Assembly (NCBI GenBank): GCA_947455865.1
Contig: CANGQZ010000002.1
Coordinates: 1-54,286, forward strand
DNA from: Sphingomonadaceae bacterium
GTDB lineage: Bacteria > Pseudomonadota > Alphaproteobacteria > Sphingomonadales > Sphingomonadaceae
Direction of reading: 5' to 3'
Length of the DNA stretch: 54,286 nucleotides
Under the pieces are notes generated by a model. That model saw only the letters and a list, made by a program, of their open reading frames with translations, was not told where the DNA came from and made no database searches. A program made the translations under genes and the position numbers. This document shows positions 12,107-50,074 of this stretch, piece after piece; the first letter of the stretch is position 1, and each line of letters begins with the position of its first letter.

Positions 12107-12131
12107 GCGGGTGTGTCGCAGCTCCAGTTGA

Positions 12132-12162: not shown

Positions 12163-12173
12163 AGCATTCAGCG

Positions 12174-23181: not shown

Positions 23182-24495
23182 TCAGATATACCCGATCGCG
23201 CGCTTCTGGTCGGCCACGATGTACTTGGCGGTCATCCAGTAGTGCCATGCGGCCCAGAATCCGGTGGGCGCGAGGAACAGCTGCGCCAGCCGCAGCGAAT
23301 CCGCATCGGCCGGGTGCGGGCCGGCGAAGAAATCGCTCAGCGTGCCGACGAAGGCGGGGGCCACGATCAGGTTGAACACGTTGGCGATCAGCAGCGAAAT
23401 GGCGATGAACATCGCGCGCATCTTGGGCGGGCCAAGGTTCTGGCACATCGCGAACGCCGGGCCGAGGTAGAAGTAGATCGCCGGAATGAACAGCCAGAAC
23501 ATGATCTGCGCCACGAACAGATCGCGGGTGTAGAACGCGAAGAACGAAGGCACGGTCGCGATTGCGGTGAAGATCGCGAGGAACAGCGCCACCCGGCGCG
23601 GGTCAGTGAAATAGGGTTTGCCGATCACCCATGCCGTCAGCAGCGACGCACCGATCCCGGCCCACAGGTAGATATTGCCCAGCATCCCGCCGGAAACGCC
23701 TTCGTCCATGCCATAAGTGCGCTGCAGGAACAGCGGTGCGAACCACATCAGGCCCCAGCCCCACAGCGCCGAAACCCCGCTGCCCATCATCGCGTGGACG
23801 GCTGCCTTCTGCGACCACAGGAACTTCAGCGTCTGCGCCAATGTCGGTGCATCGGTATCCTCGCACTTGTCGAGGCACCCCCGCTCGGGCTCGCGGATGG
23901 TGAGATAAAGCACGATTGCCAGCAGCACGCCCGGCGCGCCCAGCACCAGAAAGGCCCAGCGCCAGCCGTGATGCGCCGAAACGGTGCCGGCAATGTCCGA
24001 ACCCAGCCACGCACCGATCGGCGCGCCCAGCGCGAAGATCGTGGTCGCCATCGCGCGGCGGCTGGCGGGGAAGTAGTCGGCCACGATCGCGTTGCACGCC
24101 GGGGTCCCGCCCGCCTCACCGATGCCGACGCCGATCCGCGCCAGCAGCAGTTCGATATAGCCGCGGGTAAAGCCGCAGAGCGTGGTCATGGCCGACCACA
24201 CGACAATGCACGCGCTCAGCAGCTTCACCCGGTTGACCCGGTCGGTCAGCCACGACAGCGGAATGCCCATCACGACATAAAACAGCGCCAGCGGAATGCC
24301 GAGCGAGGCCGCACCCTTGTCGGTCAGGTTGAATTCGTCGCTGATCGGCTTGAGCAGGGTGGAGAGCACATAGCGGTCGGCAATGCTGATGGTGTAAACC
24401 AGCATCACGATCACCAGCACATACCAGCGCTCCAGCGGCGTGCTGTTGGTGGCGGTGGGGCTGTCGGCCCCGGTCGATGCGCCTAATCCGGCCAT
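23182..24495 (-). CDS. MFS transporter (spinster-like)
   Basis: ERWYVLVIVMLVYTISIADRYVLSTLLKPISDEFNLTDKGAASLGIPLALFYVVMGIPLSWLTDRVNRVKLLS; multiple TM segments. Start trimmed from ORF start 24744. Confidence 0.9.
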   Translation of the reverse strand: MAGLGASTGADSPTATNSTPLERWYVLVIVMLVYTISIADRYVLSTLLKPISDEFNLTDKGAASLGIPLALFYVVMGIPLSWLTDRVNRVKLLSACIVVWSAMTTLCGFTRGYIELLLARIGVGIGEAGGTPACNAIVADYFPASRRAMATTIFALGAPIGAWLGSDIAGTVSAHHGWRWAFLVLGAPGVLLAIVLYLTIREPERGCLDKCEDTDAPTLAQTLKFLWSQKAAVHAMMGSGVSALWGWGLMWFAPLFLQRTYGMDEGVSGGMLGNIYLWAGIGASLLTAWVIGKPYFTDPRRVALFLAIFTAIATVPSFFAFYTRDLFVAQIMFWLFIPAIYFYLGPAFAMCQNLGPPKMRAMFIAISLLIANVFNLIVAPAFVGTLSDFFAGPHPADADSLRLAQLFLAPTGFWAAWHYWMTAKYIVADQKRAIGYI

Positions 24496-24511
24496 AAGCT
24501 CGATCCGTCCT

Positions 24512-26551
24512 TTATGATGCGAGCCCGGGGCCGAGCGCTGCACGCAGCGGATCGAGCCAAGGCGAGAAGTTTTCCCACTGGTCCACGCCGCTGGTGAAGA
24601 TCGGTTGGCGGACCTGTTCGGAACTGGCGGTGCGCACGGCGCGCCCGGTCTTGTGGAAATCGAGGCAGGCCTGCTCGAACGGCAGCCCGCAGAAATCGAG
24701 CACCCGCCGCACCTGCGTTTCCAGATCGGCGACGACCTCTTCATACTGCACGCGCAGGATCTTGCCCGGCAGCACCGCGTCCCAGTGGTCCATCAGGCCG
24801 ACATAGTCGTGATAATAGTGGCCGATTTCCTCGAGACCGTAAGTGAACTCCTGCCCTTCGGCGAACAGCTGCTTGAAACCGCTGAAGCAGCAGCCCATCG
24901 CCCCGCGCCGCGCGTCGATGATCCTGGCATTGGGCAGGATCAGGTGGATCAGCGCGATGTGCCGGAAATTGTTGGGCATCTTGTCGATGAAGAACGGCGT
25001 GCCGCGCTTGCGGTGGACCCGGGTGTCGCGGATGTAGTCTTCACCGAAGCGGGCGAGGTCTTCGCGTGACAGATCGGCGAGGTTTCCCGGATAATTCGGC
25101 GCATCGCCCACCCGGCGCTGGCCGTCGAGCCGATGCGACAGCGCGAGGATGTTCGGCAGCTCCAGCGTGCCCTCAACCTGGCTGTGCGAGGACAGGATCT
25201 GTTCGAGCAGGGTCGAGCCGGCGCGCGGCAGGCCGAGGATGAAGATCGGATCGGGCGCTTCGTGGCCGCTGCCCTTGAAACGGTCGAACAGCGCGGCACC
25301 GCAGTGCGTTTTCTGGCGATCCATCTCGGCGGTGATGCGCCGCCAGTCATAGCCCAGCTCGTCGCGCTTCAACCGGTTGCCGCGCTCGTAATAGTCGAAG
25401 CTTTCGGCATATTCGCCGCGATCCTCCAGCGCCTTGCCCAGTGCGAAGCACAAGTGATAGCGATCGGCGAGGCCGGTCGTCGAGCGTGCCTCGCAGTCGC
25501 GCATCTGCTCGATCTCGTGCGGCTCGAAGCGATAAGTCTTGAGGTTGGCGAGGCTCCAGTAAGCATCGCCGAAATCGGGGCGCACGCCATAGGCGCGGCG
25601 GTAGGCGGCGATGGCTTCGGCCTGCTGGCCGATGGTCTTCTTGGCGTGGCCGATGGAGAGGTGCAGCGTGGGGTTGCCGGGCATGGCCTCCGCCTGCCGC
25701 TGGTAAATCGCAATTGCCTCGTCAAACTCGCCGATGGCGAGGCTCTGGTTCGCGTAGAGCAGCTCGAACTGCGGCTTGTCGGGCGCCTTTCGTTGCAGGG
25801 CCTTGGCCTCTTCCAGCGCCTTTTCGTACTTCTGACGCTTGTGCAGCAAATTCACGTAATCGAAGTGAGCGTTGGTATTGTCCGGCTCGAGCACGATGGC
25901 GGATTCAAGCAGGAATTCGGCATCGTCATAGGAATTGAACTTGGTGCCGATCTCCGCCAGCAGGCGCATGGCTTCGGTGTGGTGGCCGTTTTGCTGCAGG
26001 AACGCGCGGCATTGCTGCTCCGCCTTGCGGATGCGGTTTTCCTGAATCAGGCTGACCACGGCCTGCAGGGCTTCGGGCAGGCTTTCCAAATAATCGCATT
26101 GCGCCTGCGCAATCTTGGCGGCTTCGGTCCGCCCCGCCGCCGTGTCGATCGCCACCAGCATTTTCCAGCTGGCGAGCAGCCCGACGTTGTGATCGACCGC
26201 GCTTTGATAGGCGGCCCGCGCCTGCTCGTGCTGCCCAAGGGCGCGCAGGCTATGGCCGCGTTCCTGATGCGCCCGGCCATAGCCGGGGGCGAGTTCGATC
26301 AGACGGTTGATGGTGGCGAGGGCATCGAGCGGGCGGCGCATATAGCGCTGGATGACCGCCAGCAGATAAAGCGCGTCCTGATCGTCGGCATTAAGCTGGA
26401 GGGCCTGCCGGGCAAGCGCTTCGCCTTCGGCCAACTGACCGCGCTGCAGTGCGCCGCGTGCCTGTTCGATCAGTCTGGCCGCATCCGTCGTTGCGGCAGG
26501 CGGGTTCTGCCGCATTGGAACTTGTGTCGCCATATGGCCAGTCTGGCTCAC
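24512..26551 (-). CDS. TPR-repeat sulfotransferase family protein
   Basis: N-terminal TPR repeats (ARLIEQARGALQRGQLAEGEALARQALQLNADDQDALYLLAVIQRYMRRPLDAL...); sulfotransferase P-loop-like FILGLPRAGSTLLEQILSSHSQVEGTLELPN. Confidence 0.9.
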   Translation of the reverse strand: MSQTGHMATQVPMRQNPPAATTDAARLIEQARGALQRGQLAEGEALARQALQLNADDQDALYLLAVIQRYMRRPLDALATINRLIELAPGYGRAHQERGHSLRALGQHEQARAAYQSAVDHNVGLLASWKMLVAIDTAAGRTEAAKIAQAQCDYLESLPEALQAVVSLIQENRIRKAEQQCRAFLQQNGHHTEAMRLLAEIGTKFNSYDDAEFLLESAIVLEPDNTNAHFDYVNLLHKRQKYEKALEEAKALQRKAPDKPQFELLYANQSLAIGEFDEAIAIYQRQAEAMPGNPTLHLSIGHAKKTIGQQAEAIAAYRRAYGVRPDFGDAYWSLANLKTYRFEPHEIEQMRDCEARSTTGLADRYHLCFALGKALEDRGEYAESFDYYERGNRLKRDELGYDWRRITAEMDRQKTHCGAALFDRFKGSGHEAPDPIFILGLPRAGSTLLEQILSSHSQVEGTLELPNILALSHRLDGQRRVGDAPNYPGNLADLSREDLARFGEDYIRDTRVHRKRGTPFFIDKMPNNFRHIALIHLILPNARIIDARRGAMGCCFSGFKQLFAEGQEFTYGLEEIGHYYHDYVGLMDHWDAVLPGKILRVQYEEVVADLETQVRRVLDFCGLPFEQACLDFHKTGRAVRTASSEQVRQPIFTSGVDQWENFSPWLDPLRAALGPGLAS

Positions 26552-26633: not shown

Positions 26634-29411
26634 TTACATCTTGTACGAGATGCGCATGCCGATCGTCCGCGGCCGCGAGGTCGTCACGCGCTTTTCACCG
26701 TCGTTAGCGCTGGTGAAGAGCTGCGGGCGCTCGTCGGTCAGGTTGTCGCCATAGATGGTGAGCGACCACATGTCCTTGCTGATCCCGATCGAAGCCTCGA
26801 ACGTGTCGTACGAAGGCTGGTTGAACTGGTTCTGCTGAATCTGAACCGGATCACCCGGGTGCACCGTCACGCCGTTGATCGTCGCGGTGCCACAATTCGT
26901 GTAGGGCGACGAGCAGTAATACAGGATGTTGGTGTTCACCAGATCGGAGGTAATCGTTCTGCCGACATGGTGCCAGCCGCCGGCGATGAACGGCTTAAGC
27001 CCGCTCGGCATCTCCCATTCATAGCGGAAGCGGATGTTGCCCTGGAATTTGGGGCTCAGCGCCAGCGGGGTTCCGGCCGGAGCAATCACGCCCTGCGCGC
27101 AGAGCGTCTGAGCAACCGCATTGCCGGAGCAGCCCGTGATCTTGGTATCGTTGTACGAGAACCCGGCACCGATGGTCAGGCCGCGAGTCGGCCGGGCCGT
27201 GATGTCGCCTTCGATCCCCTTGATCCGCGCGTTGGCCGCGTTGCTCACGAAGGTCTGGTTGGAGATGTTCTGGTCAAACGCGGCAATCTGGATGTCCTTC
27301 CAGTCGATGATGTAGGCTGCAAGGTTGATCTGCAACCGGTGATCGAACAGCCCGAGCTTGGCGCCGATCTCGTAGTTGTTCACCTTGTCGGGTTCGTAGA
27401 ACCGGTTGCGCTGACATGCGGCAGGGGAAAGACCACCGGATCCCGCCGCATCGTTGTTGCAGCCCTTGCGGTTGAAGCCGCCGGGGCGGAAGCCTTGCGA
27501 AAAAGTTGCATAAACCAGCGAGTTCGTATCGATCTTGTAGGTCAGGTTGGCCTTGAACAGCGTGCCCTTGAAGGTCTTGGGATTGATCCCGGCGAGGTTG
27601 ATTGCCAAGTCGGAGCTCTTGCCAAGAGAAGTGGGTGGATTGGCCTTGGGCGTATAATTGCATGTGGTCAGGCCAGTTGCCGGATCGGTGCTGACGGTCA
27701 GGCAGTCGGCGCGCACAGTGCCGGTGAAGCTGTTGCTCGATCCGCCCTCCATGCTGGCCTGTTCGTTGTAATAGCGCAGCCCGCCGGTGATAGTGAGCTT
27801 GTCGGGGATGATGTCAAACGAAGCTTCGCCAAACAGCGAGAACTGCCGGTCACGCCGCAGGATGGTGTTGACGAAGCCGGCACCCCCCAGCGGGCCGACG
27901 TTGAGAACATTGACCTTCGGATTGGGCGCCAGATCGTAGATAAAGCCCGCATCCGCCAGCGTATAATTCCACTGGGTAACGTCGTAGATTCGGTTCACGT
28001 CATAGAACGCACCCAACGTAGCGCGGATGCGCTCGCCCGCCGGCGTGGTGACGCGGAATTCCTGAGTCCAACGGCGGTTGCGGTCATTGACTTTGTAGCT
28101 GTTGTGCGGGGAATAGCAGGTCTGGCCCTGCGCCGCTGAGTTGGAGTAACCCTGATAGTACACGCCGCGGTCGCAGTTGTAGAACGGCATGAACAGGCCG
28201 ATGTTGGCATAGCGGGCATAGTCCGCCTGCTGCACCGAATGGTGATCCTGGTAGGACGATGTGTAGATCAGATCGAGGAAAGCCAGCCGCCCCTTCAAAA
28301 CCGCCGAGGACAGGCTGACCGTGTCGCGCAGCGAGTTCGGCCCAAACTGCTGGGACTTCAGGTCGCCCGCCGCAGGCGAATAGTCGAACACGCCGTCGGT
28401 CTTCAGTTCCTGATACAACGTCATCGCTTCGAGCGACCAGTCGTCGGTGATCTGGTAAAGCGCCGAGGCGCGACCGCCGGTGTAGGTCGCGTCGTTGTAG
28501 TTGTCTTCGATGAAGGCGTTGTTGTTGATCGACTTGCGCAGCGGCACCTTGAAACCGCCAGTGGTGCCGGTCGCGGTCGCGACGCAGTTTTCGACGCCAA
28601 CGCACGACTGGATCGCCTGATTGACCAGCAGAGGGTTGCTGGTAGGCAGTTGGCCGGGGCCGCCCGGATTCCACGGCATCTGGTAAGTGCCGGCAACGTT
28701 GTCGATATAGCCGCCCTGCTGATCGGCGTAGACCGCGACGCGGACGGCCAGCTTGTCCTTCACGATCGGCAGGTTGACGAAGGCGTCGACGCCGAAGCTG
28801 CCCTTGCCGCCCTTGGTCGTGGCCGCATTGCCCGTGAAACCGGCGTGGAATTCGGCCAGATCGGGGCTGTTGGTGATGTAACGGATCGCGCCGCCCATCG
28901 CGCTGGCGCCAAACAGGGTGCCCTGCGGCCCGGCCAGAACTTCGATGCGGTTGATGTCGGTCGCGTGGATGTCAAGGTTGCGGCCCGGCGTCGAGGCCGG
29001 AGCGTCGTTGACATAGAGCGCGACGTTCGGCTGCACGCCGGCCACGCCGAGGATCTGGGCGCCGGCGGTGTCGGTCGACAGGCCGCGAATGTAGATCGAC
29101 GAGATGCCGGGGCCGCGCGAGGCGGTGCGCACGTTGGGGAGATATTCGACCAGCTTTTCGAAGTTGGTGACGTTCAGCTTCTGCAGCGCGTCGCCGCTGA
29201 GTGCCTGAATGGCGACCGGGATCTTGTTGGCCGTTTCCTCACGCCGGGTGGCGGTCACGAGGATTTCGGTGATGCCCTGATCGGTGTTTTCGGTGGCAGT
29301 GGCCGAAGCAGGTGCCGCAGCGGGGGCTGACTGGGCCAGAGCCGGCGTTGCCCCGGCGCCCATCATCACGAGCACGGTGGCTGCGCAAGAAAGATTGAGA
29401 CTCGATTTCAT
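26634..29411 (-). CDS. TonB-dependent receptor
   Basis: MKSSLNLSCAATVLVMMGAGATPALAQ signal peptide; ITEILVTATRREETANKIPVAIQALSGDALQKLNVTNFEKLVEYLPNV plug; [29 protein letters not shown]-terminal TIGMRISYKM. Confidence 0.95.
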   Translation of the reverse strand: MKSSLNLSCAATVLVMMGAGATPALAQSAPAAAPASATATENTDQGITEILVTATRREETANKIPVAIQALSGDALQKLNVTNFEKLVEYLPNVRTASRGPGISSIYIRGLSTDTAGAQILGVAGVQPNVALYVNDAPASTPGRNLDIHATDINRIEVLAGPQGTLFGASAMGGAIRYITNSPDLAEFHAGFTGNAATTKGGKGSFGVDAFVNLPIVKDKLAVRVAVYADQQGGYIDNVAGTYQMPWNPGGPGQLPTSNPLLVNQAIQSCVGVENCVATATGTTGGFKVPLRKSINNNAFIEDNYNDATYTGGRASALYQITDDWSLEAMTLYQELKTDGVFDYSPAAGDLKSQQFGPNSLRDTVSLSSAVLKGRLAFLDLIYTSSYQDHHSVQQADYARYANIGLFMPFYNCDRGVYYQGYSNSAAQGQTCYSPHNSYKVNDRNRRWTQEFRVTTPAGERIRATLGAFYDVNRIYDVTQWNYTLADAGFIYDLAPNPKVNVLNVGPLGGAGFVNTILRRDRQFSLFGEASFDIIPDKLTITGGLRYYNEQASMEGGSSNSFTGTVRADCLTVSTDPATGLTTCNYTPKANPPTSLGKSSDLAINLAGINPKTFKGTLFKANLTYKIDTNSLVYATFSQGFRPGGFNRKGCNNDAAGSGGLSPAACQRNRFYEPDKVNNYEIGAKLGLFDHRLQINLAAYIIDWKDIQIAAFDQNISNQTFVSNAANARIKGIEGDITARPTRGLTIGAGFSYNDTKITGCSGNAVAQTLCAQGVIAPAGTPLALSPKFQGNIRFRYEWEMPSGLKPFIAGGWHHVGRTITSDLVNTNILYYCSSPYTNCGTATINGVTVHPGDPVQIQQNQFNQPSYDTFEASIGISKDMWSLTIYGDNLTDERPQLFTSANDGEKRVTTSRPRTIGMRISYKM

Positions 29412-29899
29412 TGGTATTCCCCCCTTGTTCGAACCCGCCACAATCCCAGCGGCGCTCGTTCGGTTGTGCGTGAAACCCTCTTTCAAACCTGGCGGCGATC
29501 CCCGGCTCGCGAATTACGATGCCTGATTGTGTCCAGCTCGCTGATTTCGTCCCCGTTCCGGACCTCCGCCGATCCTCCACGGCGAACCTTATGTGAAAGC
29601 TTTGGCTAATGCCACACCCTGACGGTCATTGCGGTGTAATGCCGCTCAAGCGCGGCAAACGAGTCACACTTTGCGATCTCGCGTTGCCTCGGTCTGCCGC
29701 AAAATGGCGGATTCAAGCCAGTTTTGTCCGCCGCGGGTGCGATTGGCAAAACCGGCAAATCGCGGCCAGACGCATGATCTGCGGCCGCTCGGCCCGGTAT
29801 TTGTGAATTTGAAATGAGATCATGCAGAAATCCGATTGGATGCCTCCCGGCTGATCGTCCACCCCGCGATGAGGCACAAGGATCGCTTGGAACACCGTC

Positions 29900-31135
29900 A
29901 TGATCGACTACCGCCGGATTGGCGCGCTGCTCGCTGGGCGGCGCGAGGGCTATTGCCTTCCGCAGGGGCTTTATAACGACGTCGACGTGTTCGACTTCGA
30001 CATGGACGCTATTTACGGCACGGGCTGGCTGATGGCCGGCTTCACCTGCGAACTGCCCACGCCGGGCAGCTATGTCTCGCAGATGTTCGGCAAGTGGCCG
30101 GTGCTGATCGTGCGCGACAAGCAAGGCGTGATCCGAGCATTCCACAACAGTTGTCGCCACCGCGGATCGATGATCTGCAAGCCGGGCAGCGGCAGCGCGC
30201 CACGGATCATGTGTCCCTATCACAGCTGGACTTACGAGCACGACGGCAAGCTGCTGGCGGCGCCGCGGATGGGTGACGATTTCGATAAGTCCGCCCATGG
30301 CCTGCGTCCGCTGCGCATCGAATTCGCTGCCGGGGCGATGTTCATTTCCTTCGCCGAGAACCCGCCGCCGTTCGCGGACTTTGCCGAGAAGCTCGAAATC
30401 TACCTCGGCCCGCAGCGGATGGACCGGGCCAAGCTGGCGTTCGAGAGCACGATTTCCGAATATGCCAACTGGAAGCTGGTGATGGAAAACGGGCGCGAGT
30501 GCTATCACTGCGCCACCGGCCACCCCGAGCTGGCCCGCACGTTCCCCGTCACCATGTCGAAGCACTTCGACCGCGCCAATGATGCGCGGGCGAAGGAGTT
30601 TGTCGATACGATGACCGCCAACCACCTCGAGACCGAGGCGATCGAGGGCGACTGGTGGCAGCTGGCGCGGTTCGGGCTCAACCGCGGGGCGGAGACGCTG
30701 TCGATGGACGGGCACCATATGGTGCGCAAGCTGATGTGCGAGGAAAACCAGGGTTACGTCGGCTCGATGCGCCTGGCGATCGATCCGCACTGCTTCCTCC
30801 ACGCGACATCGGACCATGTGTTCATGTTCAGCGCGGTTCCGGTCTCGCCGACCGAAACCCTTGTCACCGGTAAGTGGTACGTCCACGCCGATGCCGTGGA
30901 GGGCGAGGACTACACGGTCGAGGGCCTGTCCGAACTGTGGACCCGCACCAACCTGCAGGACAAGGAACTGGCGGAAAACAACCAGCTCGGTGTGAACAGC
31001 CCGGGCTATCTGCCGGGCCCCTATTCGCGGGACGCGGAGATGCTGGCGCTGCGGTTCACCGATTGGTATTGCAATACGGCCCGGGCCTATCTGGCTGGCC
31101 GGACTGCAATGGATGCCCCAATCCATGTCGATTGA
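29900..31135 (+). CDS. Rieske non-heme iron oxygenase alpha subunit (second, GbcA/CntA/Stc2-like)
   Basis: CRHRGSMICKPGSGSAPRIMCPYHSWTY; NWKLVMENGRECYHCATGHPEL with bridging Glu. Confidence 0.9.
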   Translation: MIDYRRIGALLAGRREGYCLPQGLYNDVDVFDFDMDAIYGTGWLMAGFTCELPTPGSYVSQMFGKWPVLIVRDKQGVIRAFHNSCRHRGSMICKPGSGSAPRIMCPYHSWTYEHDGKLLAAPRMGDDFDKSAHGLRPLRIEFAAGAMFISFAENPPPFADFAEKLEIYLGPQRMDRAKLAFESTISEYANWKLVMENGRECYHCATGHPELARTFPVTMSKHFDRANDARAKEFVDTMTANHLETEAIEGDWWQLARFGLNRGAETLSMDGHHMVRKLMCEENQGYVGSMRLAIDPHCFLHATSDHVFMFSAVPVSPTETLVTGKWYVHADAVEGEDYTVEGLSELWTRTNLQDKELAENNQLGVNSPGYLPGPYSRDAEMLALRFTDWYCNTARAYLAGRTAMDAPIHVD

Positions 31136-32384
31136 TACAATCGGGACCTATCGCCCGGAAACGCTTGCTGTCGCCTATGGTTATGATCCAGCATCGGCTC
31201 TCGGGTCGGTCAAGCCGCCGGTCTACCTGACTTCGACCTTCATTTACCCCTCGGCCCAGCACGCCAAGGAAGTTCATGAGGCGTTTTTCGAAGGCACCGG
31301 CCCGCTGGCGGGGCAGGCGGGGCATATCTATGCCCGGCTCGGCCATCCCGGGCTCGATATTCTGGAAAGCCGGCTGGCCGCGATCGACGGGGCTGAAGCG
31401 GCTGCCGCGTTTGCCAGCGGGATGGCCGCGCATTCTTCCATCGCGCTCACGTTCGTGCGGCCGGGGGACAGCGTGCTTTATGGCCGGCCGATCTATGGCG
31501 GCGTCGATGTGCTCTATGGCTCGGTCATGGGCGAGTTCGGCTGCCACTACGAAAACTACCTCGACGGCACCGATCCGGTCGGCGTGCGGGCTGCTGCCGA
31601 AGCGGCGATGGCCAAAGGGCCGCTCGCGGTAATCATGGCGGAAACACCGGCCAATCCCACTGCGGCGCTGGTCGATCTCGACCTCATGGTCGCCGTGGCG
31701 GATGAAGTCGGGGCAAAGCAGGGCAGGCGTCCGCTGGTGGTGGTGGACAACACCCTGCTCGGCCCCTTTGCCCAGCGGCCGATCGAGCACGGCGTCGATC
31801 TCTGCATGACCTCGCTCACCAAATACTGCGCCGGGCACAGCGATCTGCTGGCGGGCGGAGTCAGCGGACGGCTGGACCTGGTGCAGCGGCTGCGCGCCTT
31901 GCGGACGACTTGGGGCAATCACCTCGATCCGTTCACCGCATGGCTGGTGGTGCGCTCGCTCGAGTCCGCCTCGGTGCGGATCGAGCGGGCGATGAGCAAT
32001 GCGCGGCTGGTCGCCGAATTTCTGCGCGATCATCCCAAGGTTGCGGGCGTCACCTTTCTCGGCTTCCTGCCCGAAGGGAGCCGCGCCCGCGCGGTGTATG
32101 ACCGGCAGTGCAAGGGCGCCGGCTCGACCTTTTCGTTCCACCTCCACGGCGGCGAGGCCGAGGCCTTCCGCATGCTTGACCGGTTGAAGCTGCTCAAGCT
32201 GGCGGTCAGTCTGGGCGGATCGGAAACGCTGATCTGCCATTCCGCCACAACCACGCACTATGCGATTGCGCCGGACGCACGCGCGGCCGGCGGGATCACC
32301 GACGCAACCCTGCGGCTGTCGGTGGGGCTGGAACATGTCGACGATCTCATCGCGGATCTCGCGCAGGCGCTGGAGGCGGTTTGA
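31113..32384 (+). CDS. Cys/Met metabolism PLP-dependent enzyme (cystathionine gamma-synthase/methionine gamma-lyase fold)
   Basis: KPPVYLTSTFIYPSAQHAKE; RLGHPGLDILESRLAAIDGAEAAAAFASGMAA; VVDNTLLGPFAQRPIEHGVDLCMTSLTKYCAGHSDLLAGG with PLP lysine. Start may be ATG 31125. Confidence 0.9.
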   Translation: MPQSMSIDTIGTYRPETLAVAYGYDPASALGSVKPPVYLTSTFIYPSAQHAKEVHEAFFEGTGPLAGQAGHIYARLGHPGLDILESRLAAIDGAEAAAAFASGMAAHSSIALTFVRPGDSVLYGRPIYGGVDVLYGSVMGEFGCHYENYLDGTDPVGVRAAAEAAMAKGPLAVIMAETPANPTAALVDLDLMVAVADEVGAKQGRRPLVVVDNTLLGPFAQRPIEHGVDLCMTSLTKYCAGHSDLLAGGVSGRLDLVQRLRALRTTWGNHLDPFTAWLVVRSLESASVRIERAMSNARLVAEFLRDHPKVAGVTFLGFLPEGSRARAVYDRQCKGAGSTFSFHLHGGEAEAFRMLDRLKLLKLAVSLGGSETLICHSATTTHYAIAPDARAAGGITDATLRLSVGLEHVDDLIADLAQALEAV

Positions 32385-32386
32385 CG

Positions 32387-33847
32387 ATGGCGAATTCCGG
32401 TATCCGCGATCCCCACGCCCTTGATGGCAAGCTGCCCGCAGCGTCGGTCCGCTATGACGTGGTGGTCATCGGCGCAGGGCCGAGCGGCATTGCCGCTGCC
32501 ACGCAGGCGGCCGAGGCGGGCAAGTCGGTCCTGCTGGTCGACGAACACCCCGTCCCCGGCGCGATGATGGGCAATGACGTGCCGCTGTTCTTCGGCGGCC
32601 GGATGACCACCGCGACGCTTAACGCGCAGCGCATGCTTGAGACGATCTTCATGAGCGAACCTGCGCTCGAAGCCGCCATGGAGGCCGGGGTCGAAGTGCA
32701 GCTCGGCACTGCCGCCTGGGCGGTCTATCGCAGCGCGGCGGGGATGGTCACGCTGCCCGAGCAAGTCGTGGCGCTGGCCGATGCGGAGCGCGCCTGGCTG
32801 GCCGGATTTGGCGAACTGGTGATCGCCACCGGCGCGCGCGATCTGGCCATCGGCTTTCCCGGCTGGAACCAGCCCGGGGTGATGGGCGCGGGCGCGCTGA
32901 CCATGCTGCTTTCGCGCTACGAAGCTTTTGCCGGCAAGCGCGTGCTGTTCGTCGGCTCGCACGATCTGGCGCTCGAAACCGCGCTGCTCGCGCGTGACAA
33001 GGGCGTCGATGTGGTCGGCATGGTCGAAGTGCGCGATGCGCCGCAAGGCCGCGCCGAGCTGGTCGAGGCGGTGCGCGGGGCGCAGATCGCGATCCACACC
33101 GGCGATGTCGTGGCGCGCGCGGAAGGCGGCATCGACGGAGTTGAGCGGGCCATCCTGCGCTCCGGACTGGAACTGGCGTGCGACACCATCTGTCTGGCCA
33201 TCGGCCTCGTGCCTGCGATCGAACTGCTCGATGCAATGGGCGGCAAGCGCGTGCTCGATCCGCTGCGCGGCGGCTATGTCCCGGCCGGCGAGCCGGCCAT
33301 CCGCTTTGTCGGCGATTGCGCCGGTCTGCCCGATACCGGGTTCGATCATGTCGCCTATCGGATGGAGTGGGCCCGCGCGCTGGGCGCAGTGAGCGCGCCC
33401 GACACGATCGTTTGCCAGTGCGAGGAAGTTACCCGGGCAGACCTGATCGGGGTGCAGCCGCCCAATTACCTGGCCCGGCCCGATGCGATGGCGGCCCGTT
33501 CGCTTGAAACCCTGCTCCACGATGGGCCGGCCAACCCTGACCAGATCAAGCGCCTCACCCGCGCCGGAATGGGTGTGTGCCAAGGCCGGCGCTGCCGCGA
33601 TTCCGTGGCGATGTTGCTCGCGCTCGAAGCGGGCAAGCCGTTCGGCACGATTCCGCTTGCCACGCACCGTGCGCCGGTGCGCCCGGTACCGCTCTCGATC
33701 CTCGCCGATTGGGAAGAAAGCGAAGCGATGCGCTCTGGCTGGGATGTGTGGTTCGGCATACCGACACAGTGGATACCCTATCGCGATATCGGCACCCCGC
33801 GCGAACAGCAGCACAAGGATGCCATCGGCGGGAACATGAGCCTGTGA
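32387..33847 (+). CDS. FAD-dependent amino-acid dehydrogenase alpha subunit, HcnB/OoxA-like with BFD-type [2Fe-2S] C-terminus
   Basis: YDVVVIGAGPSGIAAATQAAEAGKSVLLVDEHPVPGAMMGND; CQCEEVTRADLIG...GMGVCQGRRCRDSVAMLL cysteine motifs. Confidence 0.87.
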   Translation: MANSGIRDPHALDGKLPAASVRYDVVVIGAGPSGIAAATQAAEAGKSVLLVDEHPVPGAMMGNDVPLFFGGRMTTATLNAQRMLETIFMSEPALEAAMEAGVEVQLGTAAWAVYRSAAGMVTLPEQVVALADAERAWLAGFGELVIATGARDLAIGFPGWNQPGVMGAGALTMLLSRYEAFAGKRVLFVGSHDLALETALLARDKGVDVVGMVEVRDAPQGRAELVEAVRGAQIAIHTGDVVARAEGGIDGVERAILRSGLELACDTICLAIGLVPAIELLDAMGGKRVLDPLRGGYVPAGEPAIRFVGDCAGLPDTGFDHVAYRMEWARALGAVSAPDTIVCQCEEVTRADLIGVQPPNYLARPDAMAARSLETLLHDGPANPDQIKRLTRAGMGVCQGRRCRDSVAMLLALEAGKPFGTIPLATHRAPVRPVPLSILADWEESEAMRSGWDVWFGIPTQWIPYRDIGTPREQQHKDAIGGNMSL

Positions 33848-35007
33848 GCGCGGCCCCGCTCAAGGTCGTCGTCGTTGGCGGCGGCGTCACCGGCCTCAGC
33901 TCGGCCTGGTGGCTCGCGCGCAGCGGTGCGCAAGTGACCGTGCTCGACAAGTTCATCGTCGGCTGGGAAGCGTCGGGCCGCAACGGTGGCGGCGCATCGC
34001 ACTATCAAAGCCCGCTGTTCGAGGAAGAGCAGCGCCTGTGGCCGCAGATGGACGAATTGCTGGGCTATCCGACCGAGCACAGCAAGGAGCGCATCGTCAT
34101 CGCGGTGACGGAAAAGCAACTGCGCCAGTATCACTACATCGCGCAGATGAACAACGACATGGGCTACCGGGTCGATCTGCTCGATGCGAAGCAGGCGCAG
34201 GCTGCGGTGCCGCTTGCCGGGGACAACTGCCTCGGCGGGATGCATTATCGGTTCGGCGGCCACGCCAATCCGCAGCGCACCGTGCAGGCCTATGCCTGGG
34301 CACTTCAGGATCTGGGCGGGCGGATCGTTCAGCACAGCCCCGTCACCGGATTTGCGACGCAGGGCGACAAGGTCGTCGCGGTCGAAAGCGCCACCGGGCG
34401 CTATGAATGCGATGCCGTGGTGGTCGCTGCCGGCCCGCAAATCGGAATGCTGATGGCCAAGCTCGGCGTCGATGTGCCGCTCGCCGCCGCACGGGCCGAG
34501 ATGATCGTGACCGAACCCGCGCCGATGATGCCGCTGGGCGGGGTCGACGGCAACGGGCTTTACGGTCGCCAGACCCTGCGCGGCAACCTCGCCTATGGCG
34601 GCGGCCCGCACGAATGGCTCGAAACCACGGCTGCCGGCCCGTCCGCACGCCCCAGCAGCCCGCTGGCGCGCAACCTCGCCCGCCGCCTGGCCGAACTGCT
34701 GCCCAAGGCCGCGCACCTCAACGTCATCCGCAGCTGGGCCGGGATTGTCGAGAACACCCCCGATGGCCGTCCGATTATCGATCGGATGAGCGATCCTGCG
34801 AACGTCGTCGTCGCGACGATGTCGGGCGTGGGCTTCGGCCTCTCACCCGCTTCGGGCCATGCGGTGCGCGATCTGGTGATCGATGGGCGCTGCAGCTTCA
34901 CCGATATCGAGAAGCTGGCCCTGTCGCGCTTCGCCGGTCTGCCGGATGACTGGCGGGCCGAGCGCGGCTGGGAACCGCTCCCCGCGACTGCCGGCGAGGC
35001 CGCGTGA
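33844..35007 (+). CDS. DAO-family FAD-dependent oxidoreductase (HcnC/OoxB or SoxB-like)
   Basis: GTG start at 33844 with GTGA overlap; VSAAPLKVVVVGGGVTGLSSAWWLARSGAQVTVLDKFIVGWEASGRNGGGASHYQSPLF. ORF start at 33577 is too long. Confidence 0.88.
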   Translation: MSAAPLKVVVVGGGVTGLSSAWWLARSGAQVTVLDKFIVGWEASGRNGGGASHYQSPLFEEEQRLWPQMDELLGYPTEHSKERIVIAVTEKQLRQYHYIAQMNNDMGYRVDLLDAKQAQAAVPLAGDNCLGGMHYRFGGHANPQRTVQAYAWALQDLGGRIVQHSPVTGFATQGDKVVAVESATGRYECDAVVVAAGPQIGMLMAKLGVDVPLAAARAEMIVTEPAPMMPLGGVDGNGLYGRQTLRGNLAYGGGPHEWLETTAAGPSARPSSPLARNLARRLAELLPKAAHLNVIRSWAGIVENTPDGRPIIDRMSDPANVVVATMSGVGFGLSPASGHAVRDLVIDGRCSFTDIEKLALSRFAGLPDDWRAERGWEPLPATAGEAA

Positions 35008-35038
35008 TCCCCAGCCAAACCCTGTGGCAGGACCGGCG

Positions 35039-36301
35039 ATGAGCGGCGGGCGCTATTCGGCGCTGGCGCTGCTGCGCGGCGCGCTCGGCGGGCAGCAGCA
35101 CTGGGGCCGCGCCTGGCGCTCGCCCGAGCCCGCGCCCAGTTATGACGTGGTGATCATCGGCGGCGGCGGTCATGGGCTGGCCACCGCCTATTATCTTGCC
35201 AAAGTTCACGGCATCCGCCGCGTCGCGGTGGTCGAAAGGTCGTGGATCGGCGGCGGCAACACCGGCCGCAACACCACCATCGTCCGCTCGAACTACCGCC
35301 AGCCCCAGCTCCAGCGGATGCTCGATCATTCGCTCAAGCTGTGGGAGAGCCTTTCGGACGAGCTCAATTACAACGTGATGTTCTCGCCCCGCGGCGCGCT
35401 GTTCCTCGGGCATTCCGATGCCGACATGACCCGGCTGGCCGAACGCGGTGATGCGCTGGTGGCGCAGGGGATCGATGCCGAACTGATGGACCGCGCGGCC
35501 GTCGCCAAGCTGATCCCGCTGCTCGATATGTCGCCGGATGTGCACTGGCCGGTGCAGGGCGGGCTGATGCAATGGCGCGGCGGCACCGCCCGCCACGATG
35601 CGGTCGCCTGGGGCTTTGCCCGCGCGGCGGACCGGCTCGGGGTCGACATCATAGAAAACTGCGAAGTGACCGGCTATGTGCGTGATGGCGAACGGGTCAC
35701 CGGCGTCACCACTACCAGAGGGACTATCGCAGCCAGCAAGGTTGCGATCTGCGTGGCGGGCAACAGCGGCCACGTGGCGGGCCTTGCGGGCCTGCGCCTG
35801 CCGATCGAAAGCCACACGCTGCAGGCCTATGTGACCGAGGCGGTCAAGCCGATGATCGATACGGTGATCATGTCGCAGTCGCTCCACTGCTACATCTCGC
35901 AATCGGACAAGGGCGGGATTGTGGCCGGCGGCGATCCGGATTTTTTCCCGAGCTATGCCCAGCGCGGCCAGCCGCTGCGGCTCGAGGACGCGATTGCGCA
36001 GGCGCTCGCGCTGGTCCCGGCGCTCAGCCGCCTGCGGATGGTTCGCTGCTGGGCGGGGGTGACCGATATGAGTTTCGACGGATCGCCGATCATCGGCGAT
36101 ACCCCGATGGACGGGCTCTATCTCAATGGCGGCTGGTGCTATGGCGGGTTCAAGGCGACGCCGGGTTCGGGCTGGCTCTATGCCCACCACCTCGCCACCG
36201 GCAAACCGCACGATCTGGCCGCACCGTTCGATCTCGCCCGTTTCGCGGAAGGGCGGACCATCGACGAGGCCGGGGTCGGCCCGATGCCGCAGCACAGGTG
36301 A
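35039..36301 (+). CDS. soxB: Sarcosine oxidase beta subunit (second copy)
   Basis: MSGGRYSALALLRGALGGQQHWGRAW...[54 protein letters not shown]. Confidence 0.93.
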   Translation: MSGGRYSALALLRGALGGQQHWGRAWRSPEPAPSYDVVIIGGGGHGLATAYYLAKVHGIRRVAVVERSWIGGGNTGRNTTIVRSNYRQPQLQRMLDHSLKLWESLSDELNYNVMFSPRGALFLGHSDADMTRLAERGDALVAQGIDAELMDRAAVAKLIPLLDMSPDVHWPVQGGLMQWRGGTARHDAVAWGFARAADRLGVDIIENCEVTGYVRDGERVTGVTTTRGTIAASKVAICVAGNSGHVAGLAGLRLPIESHTLQAYVTEAVKPMIDTVIMSQSLHCYISQSDKGGIVAGGDPDFFPSYAQRGQPLRLEDAIAQALALVPALSRLRMVRCWAGVTDMSFDGSPIIGDTPMDGLYLNGGWCYGGFKATPGSGWLYAHHLATGKPHDLAAPFDLARFAEGRTIDEAGVGPMPQHR

Positions 36302-36305
36302 TGCC

Positions 36306-36569
36306 ATGCTGCTGATCGCTTGCCCGCACTGCGGCCCCCGCGCGCAGGAGGAATTCTCCTACGAACGCACCACGGATAGCGTGGTGACCACCGAAGCCGC
36401 GCCCGATGCGGCGATGACCGCGCTGTTCACCCGCGAAAACCCGCGCGGCGTGGCCGAGGAGATTTGGCGGCATACGTATGGCTGCCGGGGCTGGATGGTC
36501 TTCCGGCGTGACCGGATCAGCCATGCCATCAGCGATATCCGACCGCTCGGACCGGAGCCGCTGGCATGA
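36306..36569 (+). CDS. soxD: Sarcosine oxidase delta subunit (second copy)
   Basis: MLLIACPHCGPRAQEEFSYE...WRHTYGCRGWMVFRRDRISHAI; CPxC and HxxGC. Start trimmed inside ORF 36126..36569. Confidence 0.93.
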   Translation: MLLIACPHCGPRAQEEFSYERTTDSVVTTEAAPDAAMTALFTRENPRGVAEEIWRHTYGCRGWMVFRRDRISHAISDIRPLGPEPLA

Positions 36570-39451
36570 ACGCGCGCGATGGCAGCCCCGTCCGCTTCCG
36601 CTTCGACGGGCGCGAATACACCGGGCAGGCCGGCGACACCCTCGCCGCCGCCTTGATCGCCAACGGCGTTGCTCTAGTCGCGCGCAGCTTCAAGTATCAC
36701 CGCCCGCGCGGGATCATGGCCGCCGGGGTGGAGGAACCCTCGGCGCTGGTCACCGTGGGCGAGGGCGGGCGGCGCGAGCCCAACACCCGTGCCACCGACG
36801 TGTTCCTTTATGAAGGCCTCGTCGCCGAAAGCCAGAACCGCTGGCCCAGCCTCGCCTTCGATCTGGGCGCGATCAACGGGCTGCTGTCTCCGCTGATCCC
36901 CGCCGGGTTCTACTATAAAACCTTCTTCGGCCCGCCCAAGCGCTGGCTGCGCTACGAACACTTCATCCGCAAGGCTGCGGGAATGGGCGCGCCGCCGACC
37001 GCTGCCGATCCCGATGCCTATGCCCACCGCGCCGCGTTCTGCGATGTGCTGGTGGTCGGCGCCGGCCCGGCCGGACTGGCCGCGGCAGTTTCCGCTGCCG
37101 AAGCGGGCCGGCGCGTGATGCTGGTCGAACAGGATTGCCGGATCGGCGGGGCTCTGCTGCGCGAGGACGTGGCCATTGACGGTATCGCCGGGCATGACTG
37201 GTCAGCCCGCGCCGCCGCGCGCATCCGGGCGCTCGGCGGGCGCATCCTCATGCGCGCCACCGCCACCGGTTACTGGGATCACAACCTCGTCACCGTGATC
37301 GAGCGCCGGGCCGAACCGGGCGCGGTGCCGCCGGTCGATCAGCCGGCGCAGGTCCTCTGGAAAGTCCGCGCCGGCGAAGTGATCCTTGCTACTGGCGCGA
37401 TCGAGCGCCCGCTGGCGTTCTCCGGCAACGATCGCCCCGGTGTGATGCTGGCCCAGGCCGCGCGCACGTATGCCCGGCGCTATGGGGTCAAGCCCGGCCG
37501 CCGCGCGGTAATCGCCACTGCGCATGATGATGGCTATCGCACTGCATTCGCGCTGGCCGATGCCGGCGTCGAGGTGGCCGCGGTGCTCGATAGCCGGGAC
37601 AATCCGCAGGGCACGCTGGTCGCGGCCGCGCGGGGCCGCTTCGCGGTTCACACCGGTGCGGTTCCGCTTGCGGCCAAGCGTTCGGGAGACCGCGTCGGCG
37701 CGCTCGTCGCCGATCTTGGCGGGCGCCAGCAAACTTTCGCTGCTGACCTCGTCGCGGTCTCGGGCGGGGTCACCCCGGTGGTCCATCTGCACAAGCAGGC
37801 CGGCGGCGAACTCGTCTGGGATGCCGGGATGGAGGCTTTCCTCCCCGGCGCTTCGCGGCAGGCCAACCGCAGCATCGGCGCTGCTGCCGGCGGCCATTCG
37901 CTTGCCGCGATCCTTGCTGAAAGCTGGGCCGCAGGCGGCGGGCCGGCGCGCAATTTCGCGGTGACCGATCCGCTTGGCGATGCTGCCGCGCCGCAGGCTG
38001 CGCCGCCGCCGGGCGCAGTCGCTCCGGGCAAAAGCTTTGTCGATTTCCAGAACGACGTGACGCTGGCCGATGTCGATCTCGCGTGGCGCGAAGGCTACCG
38101 CTCGGTCGAGCATCTCAAGCGCTATACCACGCTGGGGATGGCCACCGATCAGGGCAAGACCAGCAACATGGCGGCGCTGTCCCGGTTGGCGCAGGCGCAG
38201 GGGGTGGAAATTCCCGCCGCCGGCCTCACCACCTTCCGCCCGCCTTACACGCCCGCGACGCTCGGTGCTTTCGCCGGCGGTGCAGTGGGGGATCATGCCG
38301 CCCCGATTCGCCGCTTGCCGCTTTACGATAAGCACGAAGCGCTCGGCGCGGTGTGGCAGCCGGTCGGCTACTGGCGCCGCCCGCGCGGCTATCCCCGCCC
38401 GGGCGAAGCTCTGGGTGAAGCCTCACTGCGTGAAGCGCGCATGGTGCGCAGCGCAGTCGGGCTGGTCGATGTTTCCACCCTTGCCACCTTCGCCGTTTCT
38501 GGTCCGGATGCCGCGCTCCTGCTCGAACTGGTCTGCGCCACCGGCGTCGCCAAGCTGGCCGAAGGGCGCGGGCGCTACACCTTCATGCTGCGCGAAGATG
38601 GCTTCGTGATGGACGATGGCACCGTGTGGCGCACCGCCCCGGCGCGCTACCTCCTCACCAGCTCGACCGGTGGATCGGACCGCATGGCGCAGCGCCTGTC
38701 CTATGTCCGCAACGTGCTGCGCCCGGATCTGCGCGTCTCGGTGGCCAATCTGCAGGAACACTTCGCCGCCATCGCTGTGGCCGGCCCGCGCGCCGCCGAT
38801 CTTCTTGCCGAGCTCACCGGCGCCCCGCCGCCGCGCCACATGTCGTGCGATAGTGGCGCAATCGGCGGCACCGCTGTCACCATCCTTGCCGCCAGCTACA
38901 GCGGTGAGCGCGCGTTCGAAGTCTATGCCCCGGCCGATGCTATTGGGCCGGTGTGGGATGCGCTCTTCGCCGGGGCCAGCGCGCGCGATGGCGGCGCTTA
39001 CGGGCTCGATGCGATGGATGCGCTGCGGGTCGAAAAGGGCCACGTCGTGGTCGGGGCCGAAGTTGATGGCCGCTCTACCCCGGCCGATCTCGCCCTGGCG
39101 GGCATGGTGCGCAAGGCCGGCGGGTTCACCGGCTGGCAGGGGCTGACCCGCCCGGCGCTCGCCGATCCGTCCGGCCGCCGCCAGCTGGTTGGGCTGGAAT
39201 CGCTCGATGGCCCGATCCCCGAAGGCGGCATGCTGGTCCCCGCCCCGGGTCAAGAACCGCAGGGCCACGTCACCACCGCCGCGCCGCGCGTGGCGCAGGC
39301 GGGCTGGATCGGCCTCGCGCTGGTGGTGGACGGCGCATCGCGGCACGGCGATGAACTGCTGGCTTGGTCGCCCACCCGCCGCCAGCAAACCCGCGTCCGT
39401 CTTTCCGCCTCGCACTTTTACGATGCCGAAGGGGCGCGCTACCGTGACTGA
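36566..39451 (+). CDS. soxA: Sarcosine oxidase alpha subunit (second copy)
   Basis: 961 aa; RFRFDGREYTGQAGDTLAAALIANGVALVARSFKYHRPRGIMAAGVEEP; VVGAGPAGLAAAVSAAEAGRRVMLVEQD; C-terminal GcvT-like domain. Confidence 0.95.
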   Translation: MNARDGSPVRFRFDGREYTGQAGDTLAAALIANGVALVARSFKYHRPRGIMAAGVEEPSALVTVGEGGRREPNTRATDVFLYEGLVAESQNRWPSLAFDLGAINGLLSPLIPAGFYYKTFFGPPKRWLRYEHFIRKAAGMGAPPTAADPDAYAHRAAFCDVLVVGAGPAGLAAAVSAAEAGRRVMLVEQDCRIGGALLREDVAIDGIAGHDWSARAAARIRALGGRILMRATATGYWDHNLVTVIERRAEPGAVPPVDQPAQVLWKVRAGEVILATGAIERPLAFSGNDRPGVMLAQAARTYARRYGVKPGRRAVIATAHDDGYRTAFALADAGVEVAAVLDSRDNPQGTLVAAARGRFAVHTGAVPLAAKRSGDRVGALVADLGGRQQTFAADLVAVSGGVTPVVHLHKQAGGELVWDAGMEAFLPGASRQANRSIGAAAGGHSLAAILAESWAAGGGPARNFAVTDPLGDAAAPQAAPPPGAVAPGKSFVDFQNDVTLADVDLAWREGYRSVEHLKRYTTLGMATDQGKTSNMAALSRLAQAQGVEIPAAGLTTFRPPYTPATLGAFAGGAVGDHAAPIRRLPLYDKHEALGAVWQPVGYWRRPRGYPRPGEALGEASLREARMVRSAVGLVDVSTLATFAVSGPDAALLLELVCATGVAKLAEGRGRYTFMLREDGFVMDDGTVWRTAPARYLLTSSTGGSDRMAQRLSYVRNVLRPDLRVSVANLQEHFAAIAVAGPRAADLLAELTGAPPPRHMSCDSGAIGGTAVTILAASYSGERAFEVYAPADAIGPVWDALFAGASARDGGAYGLDAMDALRVEKGHVVVGAEVDGRSTPADLALAGMVRKAGGFTGWQGLTRPALADPSGRRQLVGLESLDGPIPEGGMLVPAPGQEPQGHVTTAAPRVAQAGWIGLALVVDGASRHGDELLAWSPTRRQQTRVRLSASHFYDAEGARYRD

Positions 39452-39935
39452 CGCCGTCACCATCACCCTCGCCCCCGCCGGCCCGGTCCACGCGCTTGAA
39501 CTCTGGGATGGGGCCGCGCTGGCTCCGCTCTCCGCCTTGCTCGGTTTCGCCCTGCCGCCGGCCGGGCGCACTGCTGGCACAGCGGCACTGCGCGCAATCC
39601 GTGCCGAGCCTGCCGTTTGGCTGCTCGATGGTCCTGCGCTCGATCTGGCCGCGATCACCGCCGCGCTCGGCGATAACGGCGCGCTCACTCCCGTCGGTGG
39701 CGGGCTGGTGCGGATCGGTCTGGCTGGCCCGGGCTGGCGCGCCGCGCTGATGGCCGATGGGCTGTTCGATGCGGAAGACCCCGCCTTTGGTCCCGGCAGC
39801 ACCGCCGCCACGCTGATCGCCCACGTCGGGGTCCGGCTGATCGTCACTGCTGCTGATGCCTGCGAAGTGCTGGTCGCGGCCAGCTACGCGCCGCACTTGC
39901 ATCATGCGCTGGAACGTTCGGCGAAAATGGCCTGA
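39444..39935 (+). CDS. soxG: Sarcosine oxidase gamma subunit-like
   Basis: GTG start overlapping the soxA stop; MTDAVTITLAPAGPVHALELWDGAALAPLSALLGFALPP...; position and size match SoxG; weakly conserved family. Confidence 0.75.
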   Translation: MTDAVTITLAPAGPVHALELWDGAALAPLSALLGFALPPAGRTAGTAALRAIRAEPAVWLLDGPALDLAAITAALGDNGALTPVGGGLVRIGLAGPGWRAALMADGLFDAEDPAFGPGSTAATLIAHVGVRLIVTAADACEVLVAASYAPHLHHALERSAKMA

Positions 39936-40701: not shown

Positions 40702-40781
40702 GCGGGATCCTAGCGCAGCCCGGCTCTGGTTCCAACCCCACTCTGGCGGTAAGGACAGATCAGGATAAGATGAGAGGAGCG

Positions 40782-41567: not shown

Positions 41568-41572
41568 GTGCC

Positions 41573-49788: not shown

Positions 49789-49862
49789 GCGGGTGTAGCT
49801 CAATGGCAGAGCAGAAGCTTCCCAAGCTTACGACGAGGGTTCGATTCCCTTCACCCGCTCCA
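49789..49862 (+). tRNA. tRNA-Gly (anticodon CCC)
   Basis: gcgggtgtagctcaatggcagagcagaagcttcccaagcttacgacgagggttcgattcccttcacccgctcca; acceptor GCGGGTG/CACCCGC, anticodon loop TTCCCAA, GGTTCGATTCC T arm, encoded CCA. Confidence 0.93.
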
Positions 49863-49975
49863 TTTCCCTGTCCGCCAGCATCCGCTAGCGTCTAGACAAA
49901 CCCCCAAAATCCAAGGTATTTAGCGGTTATCAGGCCGCAAGCGTTCACCCGCGTTCGCATTCAGCCACCAGCCGC

Positions 49976-50050
49976 TGGGGGTATGATTGGGGGGTACACG
50001 CAAATCGGCCGAGTCCATACCCCCACGCCTGGGGGTAGATTGGGGGTATA
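49976..50050. repeat. GGGGGTA repeat array upstream of integrase (candidate arm-type recombinase sites)
   Basis: tgggggtatgattggggggtac (49976-49997) and tgggggtagattgggggtata (50030-50050) as imperfect direct repeats; catacccccа-type inverted copy CATACCCCCA at 50016-50025. Confidence 0.7.
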
Positions 50051-50074
50051 GCCCCCGGAAAGGCTGGCAATCCC

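Follow-up and report, generated by a model that had tools for sequence, protein, structure and literature searches.

A conserved alphaproteobacterial operon of three N-demethylation systems and a PLP lyase, a candidate route for degradation of the DGTS headgroup

Introduction

The window analysed here, a stretch of 54,286 nucleotides from a member of the Sphingomonadaceae (contig CANGQZ010000002.1), carries a cluster of plus-strand genes for a Rieske oxygenase, a Cys/Met-type PLP enzyme, a pair of HcnB- and DAO-like flavoproteins and a heterotetrameric sarcosine oxidase, and raises the question of which compound would call for such a set of enzymes. The enzyme families are all known, and it is their combination, together with the ether gamma-elimination that we propose for it, that is new. 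Algae, fungi and bacteria widely form the membrane lipid DGTS, which contains no phosphorus and takes the place of phospholipids when phosphate is short. Its headgroup is the glyceryl ether of N,N,N-trimethylhomoserine. We consider it fairly probable that the operon degrades this betaine-lipid headgroup, glyceryl-O-(N,N,N-trimethyl)homoserine, and that its PLP enzyme breaks the ether bond through gamma-elimination. The enzyme that cleaves the ether bond of DGTS was listed as unknown in a review of 2023, and no description of a catabolic pathway for the DGTS headgroup was found in the literature searched, which was mostly open-access and exclusive of preprints.

Organization of the operon

Eight plus-strand ORFs at 29900-39935 form one operon with the gene order Rieske, Cys/Met PLP enzyme, HcnB/DAO pair and SoxB-D-A-G. 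Gene families were assigned with Pfam and NCBIfam as follows:

29900..31135, + strand: Rieske non-heme iron oxygenase alpha subunit, putative Stc2/GbcA-type N-demethylase (Pfam PF00355 and PF00848; best NCBIfam model GbcA, below cut-off)
31113..32384, + strand: Cys/Met PLP enzyme of the PRK07049 family (NCBIfam NF005455)
32387 (or 32381)..33847, + strand: HcnB/OoxA-like FAD/NAD(P) subunit with a BFD-like [2Fe-2S] C-terminus (Pyr_redox_2 and SO_alpha_A3)
33844..35007, + strand: DAO-family FAD subunit, partner of the HcnB-like protein (PF01266)
35039..36301, + strand: SoxB, heterotetrameric sarcosine oxidase beta subunit (TIGR01373)
36306..36569, + strand: SoxD (PF04267; TIGR01374 below cut-off)
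36566..39451, + strand: SoxA with Fer2_4, FAD, SO_alpha_A3 and GCV_T folate-binding domains (Pfam, NCBIfam)
39444..39935, + strand: SoxG, GTG start (TIGR01375 below cut-off)

The successive junctions measure -23, +2 (or -4), -4, +31, +4, -4 and -8 nt. The eight-gene plus-strand layout that had been read from the sequence is thus borne out, with a spacing of -23 to +31 nt, and the family calls made at the same time (Rieske, PLP, HcnB/DAO and SoxBDAG) are confirmed by Pfam and NCBIfam. A consensus scan found no promoter- or terminator-like sites above shuffled background inside the operon, and gave no reason to split it.

Enzymes of the operon

The Rieske protein reached 418 bits against the NCBIfam GbcA model, far from the cut-off of 670 for a glycine betaine monooxygenase, and is a divergent member. 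It has the Cys-His pairs, the 2-His-1-carboxylate site and the bridging Glu of Rieske N-oxygenases of the Stc2/GbcA/CntA type, and these residues (C85/H87/C105/H108, E200/H203/H208 and D354) are kept in at least 97% of the linked orthologues. The solved structures nearest to it are 3n0q and the stachydrine demethylase Stc2 (3vca/4qup), the latter aligning over nearly the full length with 331 bits. The earlier suggestion that the Rieske enzyme would N-demethylate a betaine is supported.

Among proteins of solved structure, the HcnB-like protein is related to TSOX alpha and 1y56_A, and the DAO protein is closest to 1y56_B, followed by TSOX beta; the pair resembles both the P. horikoshii 1y56 subunits and the alpha and beta subunits of heterotetrameric sarcosine oxidase. 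No HcnA-like ORF lies between the operon genes, where only the B- and C-like pair is found, so that the locus does not qualify as an HcnABC hydrogen cyanide synthase. SoxB passed TIGR01373 (635.9 bits, cut-off 529). The other three subunits remained below their NCBIfam cut-offs (SoxA 1043 bits against 1164, SoxD 73 against 116.5, SoxG 55 against 144), and are divergent members; the B-D-A-G order and the domain set of SoxA are those of a heterotetrameric sarcosine oxidase, for which the cut-offs of all four subunits are not reached together. Because the scores lie below these cut-offs, the names of the GbcA, SoxA, SoxD and SoxG families should not be taken as substrates.

The PLP enzyme scored 514.6 bits against NF005455, the PRK07049 cystathionine gamma-synthase family (cut-off 504), and its Rhizobium orthologue lies just under this value with 499.9 bits. 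The PLP lysine K237 and residues D212, Y128, Y73, R75 and R401 are invariant in the linked sequences with data; going by the residue roles established for methionine gamma-lyase, they include the stacking tyrosine, the arginine that binds the carboxylate, the catalytic lysine and both residues of the phosphate site. By sequence, methionine gamma-lyases are the closest characterised relatives, but the enzyme scored only 334 bits in the methionine gamma-lyase test (cut-off 549.7) and has Gly130 in place of the active-site cysteine. The curated cut-offs for biosynthetic O-acetylhomoserine sulfhydrylases and cystathionine enzymes were missed as well. Since the genome has its own O-acetylhomoserine sulfhydrylase and cystathionine beta-lyase encoded outside the operon, a biosynthetic or housekeeping function of the PLP enzyme was rejected, in agreement with the non-biosynthetic PLP lyase proposed by the sequence-only reading.

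Conservation across Alphaproteobacteria

A profile scan with one genome per species identified 80 orthologous loci, spanning Novosphingobium, Sphingomonas, Sphingorhabdus, Caulobacteraceae, Acidisoma, Rhizobium oryzicola, Methylobrevis and others. Genes linked to the PLP orthologue were the HcnB-like gene (75/80), the Rieske gene (73/80), DAO (70/80), and SoxA and SoxB (51/80 each). A Rieske and/or HcnB gene accompanies the PLP orthologue in 78 of the 80 alphaproteobacterial loci, the exceptions being L104 and L128; L104 has a lone PLP copy. The gene order is conserved far beyond chance, and the operon is a non-chance assemblage; the genome search for conserved order, which had been put forward as a check, was run and upholds the single conserved catabolic unit. 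In a first set of relatives, all seven same-genus genomes with a close PLP orthologue, including the window's own, have some or all of the operon neighbours, and the linked form occurs in 20 of 401 sampled genomes of the same order. In the phylogenetic tree a 100/100 branch sets the linked PLP copies apart from 12 unlinked homologues, a reading which, like the residue comparison, excludes the outgroup rows L018 and L022 (misframed, long branches); the label count of linked versus unlinked copies gives three changes, which take in these two rows and one apparent loss (L104).

Outside the sphingomonads, SoxBDAG is often replaced by one monomeric sarcosine-oxidase-like gene. The replacement in Acidisoma, Rhizobium, Methylobrevis and related organisms (L110, L111, L118, L120, L124 and L125) is a single DAO-family gene related to N-methyltryptophan oxidase. 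A GbcB-like reductase was found in four loci. The constant core is comprised of Rieske, PLP, HcnB and DAO, together with an exchangeable third N-demethylase, and the logic of the operon, as far as it can be read from its sequences, is that of three N-demethylation systems and one PLP lyase. A gamma-lyase accompanied by three N-demethylation systems suggests as substrate an amino acid that is N-trimethylated and has a leaving group at its gamma position.

Flanking genes and a separate glycine-betaine set

Upstream of the operon, the window encodes three genes with homologues at other loci:

26634..29486, - strand: TonB-dependent receptor, divergent from the operon (NCBIfam TonB families; homologues near the operon in 16/80 loci)
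24512..26551, - strand: TPR-sulfotransferase-like protein beside the TonB receptor (PF13469; 10/80 loci)
23182..24744, - strand: MFS transporter (NCBIfam MFS subfamilies; homologues in 21/80 loci)

The TonB-dependent receptor is the probable importer of the operon substrate and the MFS transporter, whose homologues directly follow SoxG in other lineages, probably serves for inner-membrane uptake.

Positions 1-12271 encode, besides BetA and BetB, a protein resembling dimethylglycine dehydrogenase, another Rieske protein, which is 42% identical to that of the operon, and a second SoxB, with SoxD and SoxA, both identified by reading the sequence, running off the window edge. The window therefore carries most of the choline/glycine-betaine route apart from the operon, which argues that the operon serves another betaine. 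Sarcosine and glycine betaine were rejected as operon substrates on account of this separate set; as the second SoxB/D/A set adjoins the glycine-betaine genes, the N-methylglycine product that had been proposed for the operon is unlikely.

Gene neighbourhoods

The DGTS headgroup, with glycerol and 2-oxobutyrate as products, was predicted before any neighbourhood was examined. A GlpR-GlpD-GlpK cluster adjoins the operon in L083, L086 and L089, and GlpD, GlpK, an AceE-like gene, a LysR gene and the whole operon lie inside 20 kb in L096. In both of these arrangements GlpK and GlpD are at most 10 kb away from the PLP gene, whereas elsewhere a single GlpK copy is the rule, in 19 of 20 genomes. Of the 80 loci, no more than 4 have linked glycerol genes, to which two genomes can be added at longer range: the N. 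pokkalii-like G123, in which esterase-GlpK-GlpD and the operon lie within 18.5 kb, and G003, with GlpR-GlpD-GlpK-esterase-LysR at 35 kb from the operon. These linkages probably represent two or three independent events. A GlpK link in L061, a fragment of approximately 120 residues at the locus edge, was not counted. Ten loci, that of the distant Methylobrevis among them, have an AceE-like 2-oxoacid dehydrogenase E1 close to the operon; in a sample of 20 genomes the gene is present in 14, where it is usually located away from the operon.

A secreted alpha/beta hydrolase (esterase) with a GxSxG serine and conserved Asp and His is encoded in 24/80 loci, on either side of the operon. It is predicted with moderate confidence (pLDDT 73) to have a PETase/cutinase fold; a fold of this type does not identify the substrate of the esterase. 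The N. nitrogenifigens operon contains a patatin, and S15-type hydrolases are present in other loci. No lipase or glycerol genes are located near the Acidisoma- and Rhizobium-type loci. The secreted esterase is encoded by 16 of 23 operon-bearing genomes versus 3 of 54 without the operon, and within the genus by 4 of 7 versus 2 of 30 (p=0.007), counts which were pooled from several genome scans and whose statistics ignore phylogeny. Formate dehydrogenase and glutathione-dependent formaldehyde dehydrogenase are each found in 12 of the 80 loci, and an OpuAC-type quaternary-amine transporter in L118, L120 and L124.

From these neighbourhoods, the leaving group would be glycerol. For 2-amino-4-(trimethylammonio)butyrate, a candidate of the sequence-only reading, three alpha-N-demethylases would not be required. 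No sulfur-handling or methanethiol genes were seen near the operon, and the sulfonium substrate, likewise put forward there as an analogue, was rejected, there being no sign of it.

Within the window no esterase or glycerol genes are linked to the operon, both being located on other contigs of the same genome. The window's sub-clade (ten loci) is without the divergent LysR gene that is present in 57 of the other 70 loci. A small contig of the same genome (C236) carries a LysR orthologue, a secreted esterase and GlpD together, and this LysR is 78.5% identical to the cluster-linked LysRs of two Novosphingobium species; the LysR orthologue of G020 adjoins a secreted hydrolase. The genome also encodes BtaA and an adjacent methyltransferase, BtaB-like by position and sequence, and the organism can therefore probably make DGTS itself. 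Among relatives, BtaA is present in G000, G014 and G020 and absent in G001, G003, G023 and G034, so that BtaA and the operon do not track each other; a mere recycling of the host's own lipid was rejected for this reason.

Proposed pathway

PLP enzymes need a primary amine. There is a somewhat better than even chance that the operon encodes the whole of a bacterial pathway for the DGTS headgroup: three oxidative N-demethylations would expose the alpha-amine, and the PLP gamma-lyase would then cleave the glyceryl ether, freeing glycerol; the substrate, the order and assignment of the demethylations and the ether gamma-elimination are those that we infer. Secreted esterases, encoded elsewhere in the genome or beside the operon in relatives, would strip the fatty acids from DGTS, and the resulting glyceryl-O-(N,N,N-trimethyl)homoserine would be imported by the TonB and MFS proteins, in whose place Rhizobiales-type relatives would use a ProXWV-type transporter. 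The Rieske enzyme would take off the first N-methyl group (trimethyl to dimethyl), the HcnB/DAO pair the second (dimethyl to monomethyl), and SoxBDAG, or the monomeric sarcosine-oxidase-like enzyme of other lineages, the third, which would leave a free primary amine together with formaldehyde or methylene-THF. The HcnB/DAO pair, previously assigned to the oxidation of a separate amino-acid product, is better read as the middle N-demethylase. Aldimine formation by the PLP enzyme would be possible only after full demethylation, and gamma-elimination of the ether-linked glycerol would convert O-glyceryl-homoserine to glycerol, 2-oxobutyrate and ammonia, glycerol entering via GlpK/GlpD and 2-oxobutyrate via the 2-oxoacid dehydrogenase. 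To our knowledge there is no proven case of alkyl ether gamma-elimination by the Cys/Met PLP family.

Alternative substrates

The same chemistry could apply to other N-trimethylated alpha-amino acids that have a leaving group at the gamma position, above all methionine betaine: three demethylations to methionine would be followed by a methionine gamma-lyase reaction that yields methanethiol, 2-oxobutyrate and ammonia. The position of methionine gamma-lyases as closest characterised relatives of the PLP enzyme is in favour of this scheme, whose 2-oxobutyrate would explain the AceE-like neighbour too; yet the glycine in place of their active-site cysteine and the lack of sulfur or methanethiol genes near the operon speak against it, methionine betaine turned up in a single paper of the literature searched, and the esterase, patatin and GlpK/GlpD links are left unexplained, so that we regard it as unlikely. 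Free homoserine betaine, a known environmental osmolyte (Trichodesmium), might instead lose its methyl groups to give homoserine, whose activated form would be the substrate of the PLP enzyme, and the three loci L118, L120 and L124, which have the ABC quaternary-amine transporter only and no lipase, would fit this substrate. Free homoserine, however, requires no PLP gamma-lyase, nor was a kinase or acyltransferase for homoserine noticed at the loci, and glycerol genes and esterases are again unaccounted for; there is little likelihood of this route either.

The chance that the operon takes part in the ordinary route from choline or phosphatidylcholine via glycine betaine to sarcosine, with the PLP enzyme as a passenger, appears very slight. 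Its oxidative enzymes all resemble GbcA and sarcosine oxidase, BetA and BetB are encoded in the same window, and lipases and glycerol genes are compatible with phosphatidylcholine too, but the separate set at 1-12271 (BetA, BetB, DMGDH-like protein, second Rieske and second SoxB/D/A), an operon Rieske well under the GbcA cut-off and a PLP gene that constantly goes together with Rieske and HcnB and belongs to a clade of its own all weigh against it, as do the BetA and BetB homologues, which flank only 2/80 and 3/80 loci, respectively. A different betaine, i.e. a stachydrine-like cyclic compound, a DGTA-type betaine lipid or another compound undergoing PLP-dependent beta- or gamma-elimination, is improbable: the stachydrine demethylase is the nearest characterised Rieske of solved structure, but stachydrine is converted to N-methylproline and proline, neither of them usable by a Cys/Met PLP lyase, and DGTA, which likewise has a glyceryl ether and a trimethylamine, is a beta-amino acid and as such an unusual substrate for this family.

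If the DGTS pathway holds true, the PLP enzyme is the missing ether-cleaving enzyme of DGTS catabolism, and represents a new use of PLP gamma-elimination, i.e. ether cleavage gated by N-demethylation. For the DGTS headgroup, the operon offers a specific candidate enzyme that can be tested, along with a stepwise route, and would connect the turnover of algal lipids with freshwater sphingomonads and further Alphaproteobacteria.

Comparison with known systems

Glycine betaine catabolism (GbcAB, dimethylglycine dehydrogenase and SoxBDAG) resembles the operon in its Rieske enzyme, flavin N-demethylases and heterotetrameric sarcosine oxidase, and in the GbcB-like reductase of some operon loci; the operon differs in having a PLP lyase as an invariant part and the HcnB/DAO pair, instead of dimethylglycine dehydrogenase, at the middle step. 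Stc2, the closest characterised Rieske enzyme of solved structure, acts on an alpha-carboxy quaternary amine, whereas the substrate of the operon's Rieske is probably acyclic, and we know of no Stc2 accompanied by a PLP lyase or an HcnB/DAO/SoxBDAG set of this kind. HcnBC, OoxAB and P. horikoshii PDH1 (1y56) share the two-subunit FAD dehydrogenase organization with a BFD-like [2Fe-2S] domain, but the operon is without an HcnA-like third gene and its context is one of betaine demethylation, not of cyanide or opine metabolism. With methionine gamma-lyase and PRK07049 the PLP enzyme has in common the fold, the catalytic lysine, the tyrosines and the arginines, as well as a score above the PRK07049 cut-off; it is set apart by the glycine replacing the methionine gamma-lyase cysteine and by a clade of its own that is tied to N-demethylases. 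BtaA/BtaB, finally, have homologues in the same genome and make DGTS, the very compound that the operon would dismantle, but are biosynthetic and unrelated to the operon's enzymes.

Genes accompanying the operon

The operon (Rieske, PLP enzyme, HcnB/DAO pair and SoxB-D-A-G) shares the window with the following groups of genes:

1-12271, minus strand: choline/glycine-betaine degradation block (BetB, BetA, DMGDH-like, GbcA-like Rieske, second SoxB, SoxD, SoxA), of which SoxD and SoxA extend past the left edge of the window
14991-17967: TauD protein (gamma-butyrobetaine/TMAEP dioxygenase-like), class II aldolase, zinc ADH
18932-23180: GMC oxidoreductase, MR/MLE-superfamily dehydratase-like protein, aldehyde dehydrogenase
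39940-43548: IclR regulator and MhpD-MhpF-MhpE-like meta-cleavage lower pathway, immediately 3' of the operon
49789-51307: tRNA-Gly, then a phage-type integrase, a likely site of island insertion

The three genes at 18932-23180 are co-conserved with the operon in Novosphingobium, and relatives of some of them, accompanied by a hydroxyisobutyrate-dehydrogenase-like gene, are also close to it at three Caulobacterales loci (L102, L106 and L108). In Sphingorhabdus and relatives (L053-L087), the operon is adjoined by an NAD-type formate dehydrogenase and FdhD, and often by a GSH-dependent formaldehyde dehydrogenase. A homodimeric AceE-like E1, scoring far under the AceE cut-off, adjoins the operon's regulator or transporter at L051, L055, L096-L098, L105 and L120; we propose 2-oxobutyrate as its substrate. 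The IclR and MhpD-MhpF-MhpE-like genes were found near the operon at none of the other loci examined. The genome search also matched a related PLP clade of about 46-52% identity (L016-L028), with no operon genes in the vicinity at the loci inspected.

Possible relation to betaine lipids

The trio at 14991-17967 is possibly a further betaine or betaine-lipid branch. In one genome (G020, locus L141) such a trio adjoins the secreted esterase and LysR, and at L106 and L108 the operon is flanked by BBOX-like and ADH homologues. The genome that carries the window itself encodes BtaA with an adjoining methyltransferase (L136 4465-6356, contig C166), a probable DGTS biosynthesis pair.
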